NCBI RefSeq assembly: GCF_947500795.1
Contig: NZ_CANMTE010000001.1
Span: 496,001 to 560,000 of the forward strand
Reading direction: 5' to 3'
Length of the DNA: 64,000 nucleotides
Source: an uncultured Gelidibacter sp.
GTDB taxonomy: Bacteria; Bacteroidota; Bacteroidia; Flavobacteriales; Flavobacteriaceae
Part shown: piece by piece, positions 43,659 through 51,775 of the stretch
How positions within the stretch are numbered: the stretch's first letter is position 1
How the letters are laid out: each line of letters begins with the position of its first letter
The notes under the pieces: generated by a model
Told to the model about the DNA's origin: nothing
The model's database searches: none
What the model saw: the letters and a program-made list of their open reading frames with translations, nothing else
Made by a program: the position numbers and the translations under genes

Positions 43659-45524
43659 ATGTCTCAAGAAACCGACTATACCGAAGATAATATACGTTCG
43701 CTCGATTGGAAAGAGCATATCCGTATGCGTCCTGGGATGTATATTGGTAAGCTTGGTGATGGTTCTTCACCAGATGATGGTATTTACATTCTTCTAAAAG
43801 AAGTTTTGGACAACTCCATTGACGAATATGTTATGGGGGCTGGAAAAACTATTGAAGTTTCCATCCAAGGCAACAAAGTCATTGTCCGAGATTACGGTCG
43901 TGGTATTCCATTAGGGAAGGTTGTGGACGTGGTTTCTAAGATGAATACTGGTGGAAAGTACGATTCTCGAGCCTTTAAGAAATCGGTAGGTCTTAATGGT
44001 GTTGGTACAAAGGCGGTAAATGCATTGTCTCATTTTTTCCGTGTAGAATCTACGCGTGACAATAAGTCCGCTTCCGCAGAATTTTCGCAAGGAAATCTCA
44101 TCAATCAAGAATTGTTGGATGACACATCCAGAAGAAAAGGGACTAAGGTGTCTTTTGTTCCGGATGAAACTATCTTCAAAAAATATAAGTTTCGCAACGA
44201 ATATGTTGAAAAAATGCTCAAGAACTATGTGTATCTCAACACAGGTTTGACCATTGTTTTCAACGGCGAAAAATATTATAGTGAGCATGGATTGAAAGAT
44301 TTGTTGGAAGAAAACATCAACGAATCTGATATGGTTTATCCAATCATTCATCTTAAAGCTGACGATATTGAAATAGCGTTAACTCACAGTAAAACACAAT
44401 ATAGCGAAGAATACCATTCTTTCGTGAATGGTCAAAACACAACCCAAGGTGGGACACATTTAGCGGCATTCCGTGAAGCGCTTGTAAAAACCATTCGTGA
44501 GTTTTACGGCAAAAATTTTGATGCTTCTGATGTTCGTAAATCTGTTGTAACTGCAGTTGCCATTAAGGTAATGGAACCTGTATTTGAAAGTCAAACGAAG
44601 ACCAAGTTGGGTTCTACAGATATGGGAGGCGATTTGCCAACTGTAAGAACATTTGTTAACGACTTTGTAAAGACACATTTAGATAATTATCTACATAAAA
44701 ATCCTGAAACGGCTGATAAAATCCAACGCAAAATCCTTCAAGCAGAACGTGAGCGAAAGGAATTATCAGGCATTAGAAAACTGGCTAAAGACAGAGCGAA
44801 GAAAGCCAGTTTACATAATAAAAAACTACGTGATTGTCGTGTGCATTTTGGAGACACAAAAAATCCTCGTTACTTAGAATCTACCTTGTTTATTACTGAG
44901 GGTGATTCTGCATCAGGAAGTATCACAAAATCACGAGATGTAAACACACAAGCAGTGTTCAGTTTACGTGGTAAGCCTTTGAATTCTTATGGCATGAGCA
45001 AGAAAATTGTTTATGAAAATGAAGAGTTCAACTTGTTGCAAGCTGCTCTAAATATTGAAGAAACTATAGAAGACCTACGTTACAACAATATTGTAATCGC
45101 TACCGATGCCGATGTGGACGGGATGCATATCAGGTTGTTGTTGATTACGTTCTTTTTACAATTCTTCCCAGAATTAATTAAAGAAGGCCATTTGTATATC
45201 TTGCAAACACCGTTGTTTAGGGTGAGGAATAAAAAGGAAACTATCTATTGTTATTCTGAGCAGGAACGTCGTGATGCCATCGAAAAATTAAAACCTAAAC
45301 CAGAAATCACCCGATTTAAAGGTTTGGGTGAGATTTCGCCAGATGAGTTTGTTAATTTCATTGGAGAAAGTATTCGATTGGATCCTATTATGTTAGATAA
45401 AGACATGTCCATTGAAGCACTTCTAGAATTTTACATGGGCAAAAACACACCAGACCGACAAGAATTTATAATTGATAATCTTAAAGTAGAATTAGATATC
45501 GTAGAGGAAGTTCATGAGAACTAA
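43659..45524 (+). CDS. parE: DNA topoisomerase IV subunit B (type IIA)
   Basis: A 621-residue type IIA ATPase subunit. GHKL motifs: [24 protein letters not shown] and [14 protein letters not shown]. The transducer and the TOPRIM domain are complete ([25 protein letters not shown]). The short form without the large insert of Gram-negative GyrB, together with the adjacent A subunit, points to topoisomerase IV, the enzyme that decatenates daughter chromosomes. The stop overlaps the start of the next gene by 11 bases, so translation is coupled. Confidence 0.93.
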
Positions 45525-45996
45525 TAATGGGAGAGTAAAAAATATCATTGTATCAGTCTACTTTATTCTGATTGTGCTTGCCATAGTGCTAGCTACGATT
45601 TTTAGTGCCTTCAGTCATCTAACTTCCAATCCATTTCTCACTTTTGTAATTCTTTTGGTTGGATTTTTAGTCCTATTTTTTTCAGTTCACGCCATTTCAA
45701 AATATTTTGAATATGATAGTGATGGTGTAAAAGTAGTCGTCATAAACAAAGGACTTTTACTGACGGAATATTTGAATTACAGGGAGCACAAATTAGAATT
45801 TGATAAAGACAGATTAATGGCTTTTAAATTCAAAAATTATATTTTTTATAAGAGCCTGACTTTTTATATTAAAAATTCGAGAGATAAAATCAAAAAGGAA
45901 ACTTTTAATGTGACTTTGGTTACTAAAAAGAAAAGACGCTTTATTGGACAATCCTTAAGCAAGATCGTTAAAAACAATACAAAACCTACTAACTAA
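45514..45996 (+). CDS. Membrane protein with PH-like domain, coupled to topoisomerase IV genes
   Basis: A 160-residue protein of no named family that I recognise. Residues 8-35 and 40-62 are two membrane helices. The remainder ([57 protein letters not shown]) has alternating beta-strand character ending in a helix, like a bacterial PH-type domain. It overlaps the end of parE by 11 bases and precedes parC by 11 bases. A membrane tether or an unrelated passenger are both possible. Confidence 0.75.
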
Positions 45997-46007
45997 TACC
46001 CGCGAAA

Positions 46008-48653
46008 TTGGAAGAAGATCACCTACAAAATGATGATGAGAATATTCAGGAGCATTCTAGTAATGAAACCATTACAAGGGTTACCGGAATGTTTAAGGAT
46101 TGGTTTCTAGACTATGCTTCCTATGTTATTCTTGAACGTGCTGTTCCGGCTATAGAGGACGGATTTAAACCTGTGCAACGCCGTATTATGCAATCCATGA
46201 AAGATTTGGATGACGGACGTTATAATAAAGTGGCGAATATTGTGGGGCATACCATGCAGTACCATCCTCATGGGGATGCGAGTATTGCAGATGCCATGGT
46301 GCAAATTGGTCAAAAGGATATTTTGATTGACACCCAAGGAAACTGGGGAAATATTCTTACGGGAGATAGTGCCGCAGCGTCTCGTTATATTGAAGCGCGG
46401 TTGTCAAAATTTGCGTTGGATGTTGTTTTTAATCCGAAAATCACATCTTGGCAGGCCTCATATGATGGGAGACGAAAAGAACCTGTCAATCTTCCGGTCA
46501 TGTTTCCTTTATTGTTAGCGCAAGGAGGAGAAGGGATTGCGGTAGGGCTTTCTACAAAAATATTACCTCATAATTTTATTGAATTGATTGATGCGTCAAT
46601 CAAACATCTGAGTGGAAAGAAATTTACTATTTATCCTGATTTCCCAACGGCTGGGATTATAGATGTTACCGATTATAAAGACGGAATGCGCGGCGGAAAG
46701 GTGCGCGTTAGGGCTAAAATTTCTCAGTTGGACAAAAGTACTTTGGTGATTACTGAAATACCATTTAGTACCAATACTTCGTCATTAATCGATTCAATCC
46801 TTAAAGCGAATGAAAAAGGGAAGATCAGAATTAAGAAAATAGAGGATAACACCTCATCTTCAGTAGAGATATTAGTGCATTTACCTACAGGAATTTCACC
46901 TGATAAAACGATTGATGCATTGTATGCTTTTACCAATTGTGAAGTTTCCATTTCACCTTTGGGTTGCGTTATTGAAGATAATAAACCATTATTTGTTGGT
47001 GTTACTGAAATGTTGCGTCGTTCTACTGACAATACGGTGCAACTGTTAAAGCAGAATCTTGAGATTAAACTTGATGAGCTTGAAGAGCAGTGGCATTTTG
47101 CATCTTTGGAACGTATTTTTATTGAGAATAGAATTTATCGTGATATTGAGGAAGAAGAAACTTGGGATGGCGTTATTACAGCCATTGATAAAGGGTTACT
47201 GCCTCACATCAAACATTTAAAACGCACGATTACTACTGAAGATATTGAGCGTTTAACTGAAATCCGGATCAAGCGTATTTCTAAATTTGACATTGATAAG
47301 GCGCAGCAAAAAATTGATTCGCTCGAAGATCAAATTGCTCAAGTGAAACATGACTTGGCAAATCTGGTAGATTATGCGATTGCATATTTTACAAGACTTA
47401 AAAATGAGTACGGGAAAGGGCGTGAGCGTTTAACCGAAATTCGTTTGTTTGATGATGTAGATGCTACAAAAGTGATTATCAGAAACACCAAACTTTATGT
47501 AAATCGTGAAGAAGGTTTTGTAGGGACATCACTAAAAAGAGATGAATACGTCTGCGATTGTAGTGATATTGATGATATTATCGTCTTTACTAGAGACGGC
47601 AAAATGGTGGTCACTAAAGTAGATGCCAAAACGTTTATAGGCAAGGATATTATCCATGTTGAAGTATTCATTAAAAAAGACAAGCGCACCATTTACAATA
47701 TGATTTACCGAGATGGCGCCAAAGGTCCTTCATACGTAAAACGTTTTGCTGTAACTGGAATTACGCGCGACAAGGAATATGATTTGACCAATGGTAGTAA
47801 AGGTTCTATGGTTTGGTACTTCTCTTCAAATCCTAATGGCGAGGCAGAAGTTATCACTATCTTTTTACGACAAGTAGGAAGTGTCAAAAAACTGAAATGG
47901 GATCTTGATTTTGCGGACATCCTTATTAAAGGACGAAACTCAAAAGGAAATCGTGTCACAAAATATGCTATCAAGAAAATTGAACTTAAAGAGAAAGGTA
48001 TTTCAACCTTAAAACCTCGCAAAATATGGTTTGATGATACCGTTCAGCGTTTAAATGTTGATGGTAGAGGTGAGCTGATTGGCGAATTTAGAGGCGAAGA
48101 CCGCTTGCTGATTATTAACCAATCTGGTACTGTAAAAACAATATTACCAGAATTGACCACGCATTTTGATAATGATATGATCGTTTTGGAAAAATGGGTT
48201 CCCAAAAAACCTATTTCAGCCATTTATTTTGACGGTGAAAAAGAACGGTATTATGTGAAGCGCTTCTTTATTGAACAAGAAGGCAAAGAAGAATCATTTA
48301 TCTCTGATCATCCTAAATCGCACCTCGAAATTGTTTCTACAGATTGGAAGCCAATGGTGGAAGTAGAATTCACGAAGGAACGCGGTAAAGACAGAAAAGA
48401 TAATTTAGAAGTCAATTTAGAAGAATTTATCAGTGTAAAAGGAATTACCGCTTTAGGGAATCAGTTAACCAAGGAGAAGGTGAACCAAATAAACTTGTTA
48501 GAGCCGTTGCCGTATGAGGCTCCGGAGGAAGTGCCTGCGCAAGATATTGAAGTTGTTGATGAGGATGAAGTTTCAGATGGAAAAACTAATAAGGATGCAG
48601 AGCAGAATGATGACGATCAATTGGATGAAAATGGACAGGTAAAGCTGTTTTGA
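46008..48653 (+). CDS. parC: DNA topoisomerase IV subunit A (type IIA), TTG start
   Basis: An 881-residue breakage-rejoining subunit. The N-terminus has the winged-helix/tower core (WFLDYASYVILERAVPAIEDG), with the active-site Tyr127 in SAAASRYIEARLSKFA, a coiled-coil C-gate (DKAQQKIDSLEDQIAQVKHD) and a C-terminal beta-pinwheel. The extreme C-terminus is acidic (VVDEDEVSDGKTNKDAEQNDDD). Translation appears to start at TTG 46008 (MEEDHLQNDD); the first in-frame ATG comes 27 codons later, just before the conserved core. It follows the small membrane protein gene after 11 bases. Confidence 0.93.
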   Translation: MEEDHLQNDDENIQEHSSNETITRVTGMFKDWFLDYASYVILERAVPAIEDGFKPVQRRIMQSMKDLDDGRYNKVANIVGHTMQYHPHGDASIADAMVQIGQKDILIDTQGNWGNILTGDSAAASRYIEARLSKFALDVVFNPKITSWQASYDGRRKEPVNLPVMFPLLLAQGGEGIAVGLSTKILPHNFIELIDASIKHLSGKKFTIYPDFPTAGIIDVTDYKDGMRGGKVRVRAKISQLDKSTLVITEIPFSTNTSSLIDSILKANEKGKIRIKKIEDNTSSSVEILVHLPTGISPDKTIDALYAFTNCEVSISPLGCVIEDNKPLFVGVTEMLRRSTDNTVQLLKQNLEIKLDELEEQWHFASLERIFIENRIYRDIEEEETWDGVITAIDKGLLPHIKHLKRTITTEDIERLTEIRIKRISKFDIDKAQQKIDSLEDQIAQVKHDLANLVDYAIAYFTRLKNEYGKGRERLTEIRLFDDVDATKVIIRNTKLYVNREEGFVGTSLKRDEYVCDCSDIDDIIVFTRDGKMVVTKVDAKTFIGKDIIHVEVFIKKDKRTIYNMIYRDGAKGPSYVKRFAVTGITRDKEYDLTNGSKGSMVWYFSSNPNGEAEVITIFLRQVGSVKKLKWDLDFADILIKGRNSKGNRVTKYAIKKIELKEKGISTLKPRKIWFDDTVQRLNVDGRGELIGEFRGEDRLLIINQSGTVKTILPELTTHFDNDMIVLEKWVPKKPISAIYFDGEKERYYVKRFFIEQEGKEESFISDHPKSHLEIVSTDWKPMVEVEFTKERGKDRKDNLEVNLEEFISVKGITALGNQLTKEKVNQINLLEPLPYEAPEEVPAQDIEVVDEDEVSDGKTNKDAEQNDDDQLDENGQVKLF

Positions 48654-48889: not shown

Positions 48890-49276
48890 CTATTTTACTT
48901 TGGTTGCAGTACCTTGTTCAACACGTTTCTTTTGACTCCCTGGTTGTACTGCCAAGCTGTATTCAAATGTATAGGAATCCTCTGAAGTAGTTAGAATTTT
49001 CATATGGATTGCTTTTTCTTCACTCATGTTTTTCGGATTGATATGTTTCATGATAAACTCACAGTCATTAATCCAACGTATGGAGGCGGTATCAATCTTG
49101 TTTTCATAATAGTCGATATTTAAATCTTCAGTTCTCACAAAACGTCCGATTTTTTCAACGCCATCAGTAGTGTACTTAAATTCAAATGTTCCAGTTTTAA
49201 AATCTTGACAGTTTCGTTCTTTATTATAACAACTGGTTAATAGAACTAAAAAAATAAGGGGTAAAAGCAATTTCAT
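48890..49276 (-). CDS. Small lipoprotein of unknown function
   Basis: A 128-residue protein with a lipoprotein signal (MKLLLPLIFLVLLTSCYNKE, lipobox Cys at residue 16) and a beta-rich mature part of about 110 residues (GTFEFKYTTDGVEKIGRFVR). The track start at 49297 adds seven residues; the ATG at 49276 gives the proper signal. In related genomes such genes next to parC are, as I recall, sometimes labelled DNA topoisomerase IV by context alone. Nothing here supports that name. Confidence 0.78.
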   Translation of the reverse strand: MKLLLPLIFLVLLTSCYNKERNCQDFKTGTFEFKYTTDGVEKIGRFVRTEDLNIDYYENKIDTASIRWINDCEFIMKHINPKNMSEEKAIHMKILTTSEDSYTFEYSLAVQPGSQKKRVEQGTATKVK

Positions 49277-49368: not shown

Positions 49369-49758
49369 TTACATCTTGACAAAATCCTTAAAAGTTCCGT
49401 CTTTATAAAAAATCACAATTTTCTCGATGCTTTTGTCTGAAGTGTCAATTGTTGGTAGGGGTGTTTTTTCAACCTTTTTTTCCGGGATATTTTCTGGTGT
49501 ATGAACTTGTGAAGGAGAAATTGGATTGGATTGTGAAGGGAATTCACCTTTACCATTTAGGAGCCAATAGAGTTCAACTTCCGGATAGGAGGACAAAACT
49601 TTCAACACAAAATCCAGACTAGGTTTATTTCTACCAGATAAAATATGTGAAATACTAGAACGCTGAACACCTATTTTTTCAGAGAAAGATGAGGCGCTTT
49701 CAGAGTAGTAATCGATGACTTTTTGAAGTCGTTTTGAAAAATCATCACTGTTGATCAT
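49369..49758 (-). CDS. XRE-family helix-turn-helix regulator
   Basis: A 129-residue DNA-binding protein. The Cro/C1-type HTH spans about residues 9-65 (SASSFSEKIGVQRSSISHILSGRNKPSLDFVLKVL). The C-terminal part is Pro-rich (NPISPSQVHTPENIPEKKVE) and ends with IEKIVIFYKDGTFKDFVKM, a short beta-hairpin-like motif seen in Bacteroidota XRE proteins. It probably represses its own promoter and the divergent M14 peptidase gene through the TTTACA-AA-TGTAAA dyads in the shared upstream region. The start is ATG 49758. Confidence 0.9.
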   Translation of the reverse strand: MINSDDFSKRLQKVIDYYSESASSFSEKIGVQRSSISHILSGRNKPSLDFVLKVLSSYPEVELYWLLNGKGEFPSQSNPISPSQVHTPENIPEKKVEKTPLPTIDTSDKSIEKIVIFYKDGTFKDFVKM

Positions 49759-49784
49759 TGTAAACTAGCATTTGAAAATATAGG

Positions 49785-49800
49785 CGTTACAAATGTAACG
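49785..49800. promoter_or_regulatory. Likely operator: CGTTACA-AA-TGTAACG
   Basis: The two 7-base arms are exact reverse complements with a 2-base centre. The site lies 27-42 bases upstream of the XRE regulator ATG, where a repressor could block its own promoter. Confidence 0.6.
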
Positions 49801-50010
49801 AATACAATCAATATAGCCATATTAATTACTAAATATTGTTTAATTTTATTAAAGTTTAGTTTTAAGTCGTTAGACATAATTAACTAATTTAAAGTAATTT
49901 AAATGTAATTCAGCAAGCACCTTAAATTCAGCACACTAAAACGTATGATGTATTAAGGTGTGAGATATCAAACTGTATATAAATGTAAACAAAGTGTTAG
50001 GGATTTCTTG

Positions 50011-50024
50011 TTTACAAATGTAAA
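50011..50024. promoter_or_regulatory. Likely operator: TTTACA-AA-TGTAAA
   Basis: The same dyad, with 6-base perfect arms, 40-53 bases upstream of the M14 peptidase ATG. A degenerate copy (TTTACATTTGTCA) follows at 50035-50047 and a half-site (TGTAAAC) precedes it at 49984-49990. Confidence 0.6.
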
Positions 50025-50063
50025 ATATCATTTGTTTACATTTGTCATCACAATAAATTGAAT

Positions 50064-51230
50064 ATGGAAATAGCACGCTTATCACATCCTTATAAACACT
50101 ATTATGAGTCCTCTCTTTTTGGGCGCTATATTAATTTAGACCATATTCAACCTCTGCTCAAAAAACATAGTAGGACTTTTGAAACTGCAATTCTTGGAAA
50201 GTCAGTTTTAGGTGAAGACATTTATTTTATAAAAATCGGCACTGGCAGAACAAAGATTTTGATGTGGTCTCAAATGCACGGAAATGAAAGCACAACCACG
50301 AAAGCCATATTCGATTTATTGAACGTGTTGTCTGAACAGCAGCATGAAGCTGTCCGTAATCTTTTAAAAAATATTACGATTGGTATTATTCCAATGTTGA
50401 ATCCTGATGGCTCAAGGGCTTATACACGCCTAAATGCGAATCAAGTAGACTTAAATCGGGATGCTCAGGATTTAACGCAGCCAGAAAGCAGGGTGCTGAG
50501 ATCTTGTTTTGATAGTTTTATACCTGATTTCTGTTTTAACCTTCATGGGCAACGGACTATTTTTAGCGCGGGCACTACAAATAAGTCAGCAACGGTGTCT
50601 TTTCTTTCTCCTGCACAAGATGCAGCTTGTGCTGTGACCGACACACGAAGAAAGGCTATGGATGTTATTGTTGCAATGAATAAAATGCTTCAGGAGTACA
50701 TTCCGGGCCAAATTGGTACGTATGATGACGCCTTTAATATAAATTGTGTTGGTGATACCTTTCAGACGTTAAATGTGCCCACTGTTTTGTTTGAGGCTGG
50801 GCATTTTGCAAATGATTATGCAAGGGAGAAGGTGAGAGGTCTCATTTTTAAATCCATATGGACAGCGCTTTTGAAAATCGGTTTTGAAGACGTTCAAGGA
50901 ATTCATGAATCTGATTATTTCCAAATCCCAGGAAACGAAAAGTTATTTTTTGACATAATTGTAAGAAATGCAAAGTTAAAAACAGAGAACGGCTATGAAA
51001 TTTTAGACTTTGCAGTTCAATACGAGGAGAAATTAAAACAAAATGAGGTGGAATTTATTCCTAAAATTGAAAAAATTTCAGACTTATCTCATTTTTATGG
51101 ACATAAAGAAATTGATGCTAAAGGTACGCTTGTGATTTTGGATGAAATGAAACAGTTGAAAGCGGGTATCGAAATCGATTTCGTAATGATAAATAACGAA
51201 AAACACTCCTTTAATGTAGAAATAAAGTAG
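50064..51230 (+). CDS. M14 family zinc carboxypeptidase-like protein
   Basis: A 388-residue zinc peptidase-fold protein. Zinc ligands are His72 and Glu75 (MHGNEST) and His161 (NLHGQ); the substrate-binding segment NPDGSRAYTRLNANQVDLNRD and the catalytic Glu in VLFEAGHF are present. No signal peptide is seen, so a cytoplasmic role such as cleaving a cell-wall-derived or modified peptide is possible. The track starts at TTG 50058, but ATG 50064 fits better. Expression is probably controlled by the divergent XRE regulator. Confidence 0.87.
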   Translation: MEIARLSHPYKHYYESSLFGRYINLDHIQPLLKKHSRTFETAILGKSVLGEDIYFIKIGTGRTKILMWSQMHGNESTTTKAIFDLLNVLSEQQHEAVRNLLKNITIGIIPMLNPDGSRAYTRLNANQVDLNRDAQDLTQPESRVLRSCFDSFIPDFCFNLHGQRTIFSAGTTNKSATVSFLSPAQDAACAVTDTRRKAMDVIVAMNKMLQEYIPGQIGTYDDAFNINCVGDTFQTLNVPTVLFEAGHFANDYAREKVRGLIFKSIWTALLKIGFEDVQGIHESDYFQIPGNEKLFFDIIVRNAKLKTENGYEILDFAVQYEEKLKQNEVEFIPKIEKISDLSHFYGHKEIDAKGTLVILDEMKQLKAGIEIDFVMINNEKHSFNVEIK

Positions 51231-51295: not shown

Positions 51296-51775
51296 ATGGG
51301 AAAGTTCAAATTGGATGAAATTGATCATCAAATTTTAGACATGTTAATTGATAATACGCGAATTCCGTTTACCGATATTGCTAAAAAATTAGTGATTTCT
51401 GCAGGAACAGTTCACGTGAGAGTTAAAAAAATGGAAGAGGCAGGGATTATTCAAGGCTCTTCATTGACTTTGGATTATAAAAAACTGGGGTATTCCTTTA
51501 TTGCATATGTTGGTGTCTTTCTTAATAATACCTCCCAAACCAAGTTTGTTTTGGAGCGTATCAATGAAATTCCATTTGTAACTGTGGCGCATATTACTAC
51601 AGGTAAATTTAATATCTTTTGCAAGGTGAGGGCTAGAAATACGTCCCACGCTAAGGATATTATCTTTATGTTAGACGATATTGAAGGAATTTACAGAACG
51701 GAGACCATGATTTCGTTGGAAGAAAGTATAAACGACAAAAAGCGTCTTATGCATTCTATTTTTAACGAACTATAA
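51296..51775 (+). CDS. Lrp/AsnC family transcriptional regulator
   Basis: A 159-residue regulator with an N-terminal winged HTH (LDEIDHQILDMLIDNTRIPFTDIAKKLVISAGTVHVRVKKMEEAGII, residues 5-52) and a C-terminal RAM/AsnC effector-binding domain (about 65-145). Such proteins respond to amino acids and act as dimers or octamers. The target is unknown; it follows the M14 peptidase gene and precedes a terminator, so it is a separate unit. Confidence 0.95.
   Translation: MGKFKLDEIDHQILDMLIDNTRIPFTDIAKKLVISAGTVHVRVKKMEEAGIIQGSSLTLDYKKLGYSFIAYVGVFLNNTSQTKFVLERINEIPFVTVAHITTGKFNIFCKVRARNTSHAKDIIFMLDDIEGIYRTETMISLEESINDKKRLMHSIFNEL

Follow-up and report, generated by a model that had tools for sequence, protein, structure and literature searches.

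Most known loop-type switches of XRE regulators come from phages and mobile elements. RcoLS20, encoded on the Bacillus plasmid pLS20, controls genes of a mobile element from overlapping promoters by means of a 75-bp loop, and a 5-bp insertion led to a loss of regulation, which proved the loop (PMC4207663). For ImmR of the mobile element ICEBs1, the same article describes six sites, three at each of two divergent promoters that lie ∼130 bp apart, and looping is suggested there (PMC4207663).

Here, we analyzed the region between an XRE-family regulator (XRE) and a divergent M14 metallocarboxypeptidase (M14) in a window of 64,000 nucleotides, i.e., the whole stretch of DNA under study. The nearest relatives of its genome are Gelidibacter species, family Flavobacteriaceae. 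XRE shares with RcoLS20 the Xre family, divergent promoters, several operators and, as a prediction in our case, autoregulation; the operator itself is different (PMC4207663). With ImmR, it shares regulator sites at both of two divergent promoters (PMC4207663). The layout of an RcoLS20/ImmR-type switch was found, with the regulator divergent from its target and operators at both promoters, and an in-phase spacing of the site clusters was seen by sequence comparison alone. Unlike RcoLS20, XRE and M14 form a vertically inherited chromosomal pair whose sites span 190–260 bp, and ImmR differs from this chromosomal pair by its place on a mobile element. The switch design itself is already known from RcoLS20 and ImmR; new here are a chromosomal pair that is near-universal in a family, an arrangement of five sites merged with promoter boxes, and signs of a loop from genome comparison. 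In the literature searched, we found no published work on the XRE-M14 pair or on XRE itself, although this does not prove its absence.

The XRE-M14 locus and its conservation

The two genes are divergent and separated by 305 bp, which carry five sites of the form GTTTACA-NN-TGTAAAC (O1–O5). The intergenic region extends from 49759 to 50063, just as the original prediction had it, and the translation start of M14 is most likely the ATG at 50064. The features of the locus are as follows:

49369 to 49758, minus strand: XRE-family regulator, 129 aa, HTH_3 domain
49750 to 49765, unstranded: putative operator O1, GTTGATCATTGTAAAC, overlapping the XRE start codon; consensus GTTTAYCATTGTAAAC
49785 to 49800, unstranded: putative operator O2, CGTTACAAATGTAACG, superposed on the XRE -7 box
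49790 to 49797, minus strand: predicted -7 box of the XRE promoter, TACATTTG; TAnnTTTG at O2 in 95 of 109 loci
49850 to 49901, unstranded: AT-rich middle block, family consensus TaAAttnnnACTTTATATAAnnnnnttTAAntaACTGA, degenerate in this genome
49975 to 49990, unstranded: putative operator O3, GTATATAAATGTAAAC, weaker; 34–35 bp from O4 in most loci
50010 to 50025, unstranded: putative operator O4, GTTTACAAATGTAAAA, the strongest, covering the M14 promoter around -33
50034 to 50049, unstranded: putative operator O5, GTTTACATTTGTCATC, coinciding with the M14 -7 box; the spacing to O4 is 24 bp in 108 of 109 loci
50037 to 50044, plus strand: predicted -7 box of the M14 promoter, TACATTTG; TAnnTTTG at O5 in 108 of 109 loci
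50064 to 51230, plus strand: M14 metallocarboxypeptidase, 388 aa, Peptidase_M14 domain
51296 to 51775, plus strand: Lrp/AsnC regulator (lrp), the neighbor downstream of M14 in all 80 named loci

XRE was present in 214 of 221 Flavobacteriaceae genomes, corresponding to 196 of 203 genera (∼97%). Of the 80 named loci, 78 have a divergent M14 next to XRE and the remaining two are contig ends; among 102 XRE loci that were newly fetched, 100 have it. Between the genes, conservation is low outside a central block and a block at either end. The comparison indicates that XRE and M14 are a near-universal, vertically inherited chromosomal pair in this family, and the switch looks like stable household regulation. 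A putative DNA site, predicted promoters, and a probable target can now be named for a regulator found in ∼97% of the sampled Flavobacteriaceae, a large family of marine and soil bacteria of which nearly all members carry XRE.

The regulator scored 28 bits against HTH_3 (cut-off 23). Its HTH part (residues 1–78) contains the recognition helix QRSSISH..RNKPS, which is invariant in the XRE alignment, and is followed by a variable linker (∼78–106) and a conserved C-terminal β hairpin, IEKIVIFYKDGTFKDF (113–127). In an AlphaFold2 monomer model (pLDDT 77), residues 78–106 are disordered. A PDB sequence search with XRE gave no match. Among solved structures, the nearest DNA-binding folds are phage 434 Cro/repressor and SinR (TMt 0.81–0.88, 25–30% identity), with E-values of just 0.02–0.09; the linker and C-terminal hairpin have no counterpart in them.

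Putative operator sites, predicted promoter boxes, and the loss of the regulator

The five 16-bp sites occupy fixed positions across the genus and the family. The dyads originally predicted upstream of the regulator and of the peptidase are present as O2 and O4, respectively. A degenerate third copy and a half site had also been described between them; additional sites do exist, but they amount to three further ones, O1, O3, and O5. O1 and O3 are each weak in one arm. At ≤2 mismatches, 115 Flavobacteriaceae loci contained 513 sites versus ∼31 in dinucleotide shuffles, and nine loci of other families contained 51 versus 3.2, i.e., the sites are commoner than chance. Conservation of the dyads in related genomes had been proposed as a check, and they were kept across the genus, the family, and beyond.

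The sequence TAnnTTTG is the σA -7 consensus in Flavobacterium (PMC9723704). The M14 -7 box at O5 was kept also in loci with altered dyad arms, and its two central positions vary freely. A convincing TTG -33 element was found in neither promoter. O4 fits TAnnTTTG in just 28 of 109 loci, yet its arms TACA/TGTA are kept in at least 98 of 109 loci at every column, while its spacer is free (AT in 39, TT in 30, and AA in 29 of 109 loci). O1 never fits the box. Based on these patterns, O2 and O5 are best regarded as operator plus -7 box and O4 as an operator alone. The shared two-base spacer that had been put forward for O2 and O4 as evidence against chance is partly explained, because O2 and O5 coincide with TAnnTTTG boxes: the identical AA comes from the predicted promoter box in O2, whereas in O4 it is accidental. 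While the non-random occurrence of the dyads was borne out by the shuffles, the spacer does not count as independent evidence. The position of sites on -7 boxes and the helical register of the two clusters (see below) were absent from the original prediction.

At O1, the site reaches into the coding sequence. Codon 3 of XRE is AAC in 181 of 186 genes, compared to 28% in the remainder of the gene. For codon 2, ATA encodes 106 of 114 isoleucines (27% elsewhere in the gene) and GTA encodes 64 of 68 valines (32% elsewhere). These synonymous codons are skewed, and the coding sequence therefore seems to be held at the DNA level by O1. A translation-start preference could add to the skew, yet it would leave unexplained why a matching half site lies directly outside the gene.

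The repeats could also be merely Bacteroidetes -7 boxes that are palindromic by accident. The match of O2 and O5 to TAnnTTTG is what this explanation expects; it fails at O4, the best site, which rarely fits the box but keeps both arms, and at O1. Natural losses of the regulator bear on the same question. Six genomes without XRE retain an M14 orthologue, and in five of them the order lipoprotein-M14-lrp is intact; the regulator alone is therefore missing there. No dyad (≤2 mismatches) was found upstream of M14 in four of the six. Another (L285) has one dyad at the O4 position, 26 bp from a -7-like box and in exact register, which is a relict, and the last (L287) has merely weak dyad matches in a terminator-like tail. 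In contrast, -7-like TAnnTTTG boxes survive in three XRE-less genomes (L283, L284, and L286). Dyads that vanish with XRE while the boxes stay, together with the misfit of O4 and O1, refute promoter sequence as the full explanation, which we consider practically out of the question.

The opposite case is given by eight XRE loci that have no M14 next to them, some of them at contig ends. These contained 24 sites versus 1.6 expected, and dyads were kept in seven of the eight. Being lost with XRE and kept beside XRE without M14, the dyads behave as XRE operators and not as mere promoter sequence. Among XRE relatives without M14 in other families of the order, the dyad is kept in L058, L060, L061, and G046; L062 has no dyad at 2 mismatches. 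Because most of these M14-less relatives retain the dyad next to the regulator gene itself, autoregulation may have preceded the link to M14.

Operators of BlaI/CopY regulators resemble a TACAnnTGTA core. The dyads might accordingly belong to another regulator of TACA-NN-TGTA sites, such as a member of this group (Penicillinase_R), and two Penicillinase_R genes are indeed present in the genome. But there are no such dyads near either of them, dyad presence tracks XRE and not other regulators, and XRE-only loci of other families retain the dyads. XRE itself has no Penicillinase_R domain, its domain matches being HTH_3 and HTH_19 alone. We rejected this explanation, to which we give almost no weight, on the lack of dyads by the two genes.

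A wider regulon was rejected as well. The 16-bp pattern (≤2 mismatches) was not enriched genome-wide, occurring at 23 places compared to 30 for the reversed control, and across 40 genomes the XRE-M14 locus was the sole recurrent place of near-perfect sites. Since the motif is not enriched in the genome, the regulon of XRE seems to be essentially this one locus.

Spacing of the site clusters and the proposed loop

The distance between the cores of O2 and O4 in most loci was 188–189, 200–203, 209–214, 220–224, 231–234, or 257–259 bp and avoided half-turn values. The prediction of whole-turn spacing was set down before new genera were fetched, and 75 new loci were then tested; ten of the 85 new loci, in which O2 or O4 could not be recognized, were excluded, and in divergent loci the best match was taken as the site position. 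Among the 75, distances of 205–209 and 226–230 bp were empty and 215–219 bp was represented by a single locus. The Rayleigh vector at 10.5 bp was 0.79 for the O2-O4 distance, compared to 0.39 for the gene-to-gene distance, and the new loci thus confirmed the prediction.

Because relatives share ancestry, we also compared 81 pairs of loci that share no branches in a tree of XRE plus M14 (greedy choice, one tree). The O2-O4 distance differed by 0–2 bp in 51 pairs. In the 30 pairs that deviate by at least 3 bp, the differences grouped around multiples of 10.5 (P = 1.2e-4 with a mean cosine of 0.47; P = 1.8e-5 at period 11). The gene-to-gene distance in the same independent pairs was not phased (P = 0.57), and no phasing was seen for the M14-lrp gap, for which there were few pairs. 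The spacing of XRE-side and M14-side sites thus appears to vary in whole helical turns, which points to a DNA loop. This would be a rare case in which evolution seems to report a loop, with cluster spacing changing by whole turns across many genera.

Our preferred explanation, in which we have good confidence, is that XRE is a local autorepressor and a repressor of M14 that is bound as a looped complex. XRE dimers would bind the GTTTACA-NN-TGTAAAC sites and shut both promoters, i.e., act by repression rather than activation, because the two -7 boxes coincide with O2 and O5, the M14 promoter is covered around -33 by O4, with O3 farther upstream, and the XRE start codon is covered by O1. Two clusters, the pair O1 and O2 on the XRE side and the triple O3–O5 on the M14 side, are apparently in helical register, about 190–260 bp apart. 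Since the clusters are held in this register, their dimers would most likely join into one looped complex, with the oligomer contact perhaps made by the C-terminal hairpin, which is conserved and carried on a flexible linker. The loop would provide cooperative, tight co-repression and a buffered regulator level, and a signal would release the complex so that both genes are made. The earlier proposal of autoregulation plus control of the divergent M14 is supported by the conserved pair, the fixed sites on both promoters, their erosion without XRE, and their retention without M14.

Alternatively, XRE might activate M14 via O3 and O4 and repress itself alone. The M14 promoter, with no good TTG at -33, would suit an activator, as would the O4 center ∼24 bp upstream of the -7 box center and O3 further upstream. 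However, O5 sits on the M14 -7 box, where a bound protein should block the polymerase, and XRE-less genomes keep M14 with -7-like boxes, so we regard activation as improbable.

In 126 of 153 loci, 71–72 bp separate the middle block from O2. The distances of the block to O4 are near 130, 140, 151, and 161 bp, i.e., in steps of ∼10.5 bp. As a widespread element it was rejected: 11 scattered weak matches were found in 10 genomes, two of them at the XRE-M14 locus by coordinates. XRE could repress both genes without a loop, each cluster acting alone and the phasing arising from a protein at the middle block or from mutational bias. Local clusters already cover both promoters, and the block, conserved relative to O2, is itself in phase with O4, both of which would be compatible with such local repression. 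Yet the distances that served as controls in these genomes show no such steps, stepwise spacing between two clusters of a single regulator usually signals contact through a loop, and a middle block alone would need no phase with O4. We therefore consider repression without a loop unlikely, though it keeps some weight. Within the preferred looped complex, the block is possibly a bend or the site of an architectural protein, which is a guess.

The M14 peptidase and neighboring genes

M14 scored 60 bits against Peptidase_M14 (cut-off 21.6), which assigns it to the M14 zinc carboxypeptidases. The zinc ligands H72, E75, and H161, as well as N131-R132 and the catalytic E244, are invariant in 27 relatives. 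The best Foldseek matches were carboxypeptidases D, N, M, and T. Active-site residues and fold are common to M14, MpaA, and M14 carboxypeptidases (4axv, 3l2n, CPD, CPT), but with 29.1 bits M14 is far under the equivalog cut-off of 157 for the murein tripeptide amidase MpaA (NCBIfam NF007897) and by score is no MpaA. No direct support was found for a peptide or cell-wall fragment as the inducing signal, which the original prediction had considered.

ImmA, the partner of ImmR, is a metalloprotease that cleaves ImmR. By analogy, M14 could be the inducer, trimming the C-terminal hairpin of XRE and breaking the looped complex in an ImmA-ImmR-like positive feedback with a carboxypeptidase. M14 differs from ImmA in being a carboxypeptidase, and cleavage of XRE is not known. 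Moreover, XRE retains its hairpin although M14 is absent in at least one genome (G030), and M14 in turn outlasts the loss of XRE, both of which make this role very doubtful.

M14 is also kept without XRE in extremely reduced genomes, namely L099 (4579–5721; the 345-kb genome G051), with its active-site motifs, and L091, L093, and L100 (0.6-Mb genomes G086 and G095). These are probably insect symbionts. The retention suggests a core role for the peptidase; we found no report in the literature on the role of M14 in symbionts. A second M14 protein with 39% identity, in a longer frame of ∼490 aa, is encoded at L097 (G000 contig 2, 128492–129562), and this type is present across the genus without operators.

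A small lipoprotein-like protein (48890–49276, minus strand), for which there was no Pfam or NCBIfam match, is a conserved neighbor of XRE in the majority of the 80 named loci. Elsewhere in the window, a 160-aa membrane-protein-like ORF (45514–45996) lies between the genes for type II topoisomerase subunits (43659–45524 and 46008–48653).
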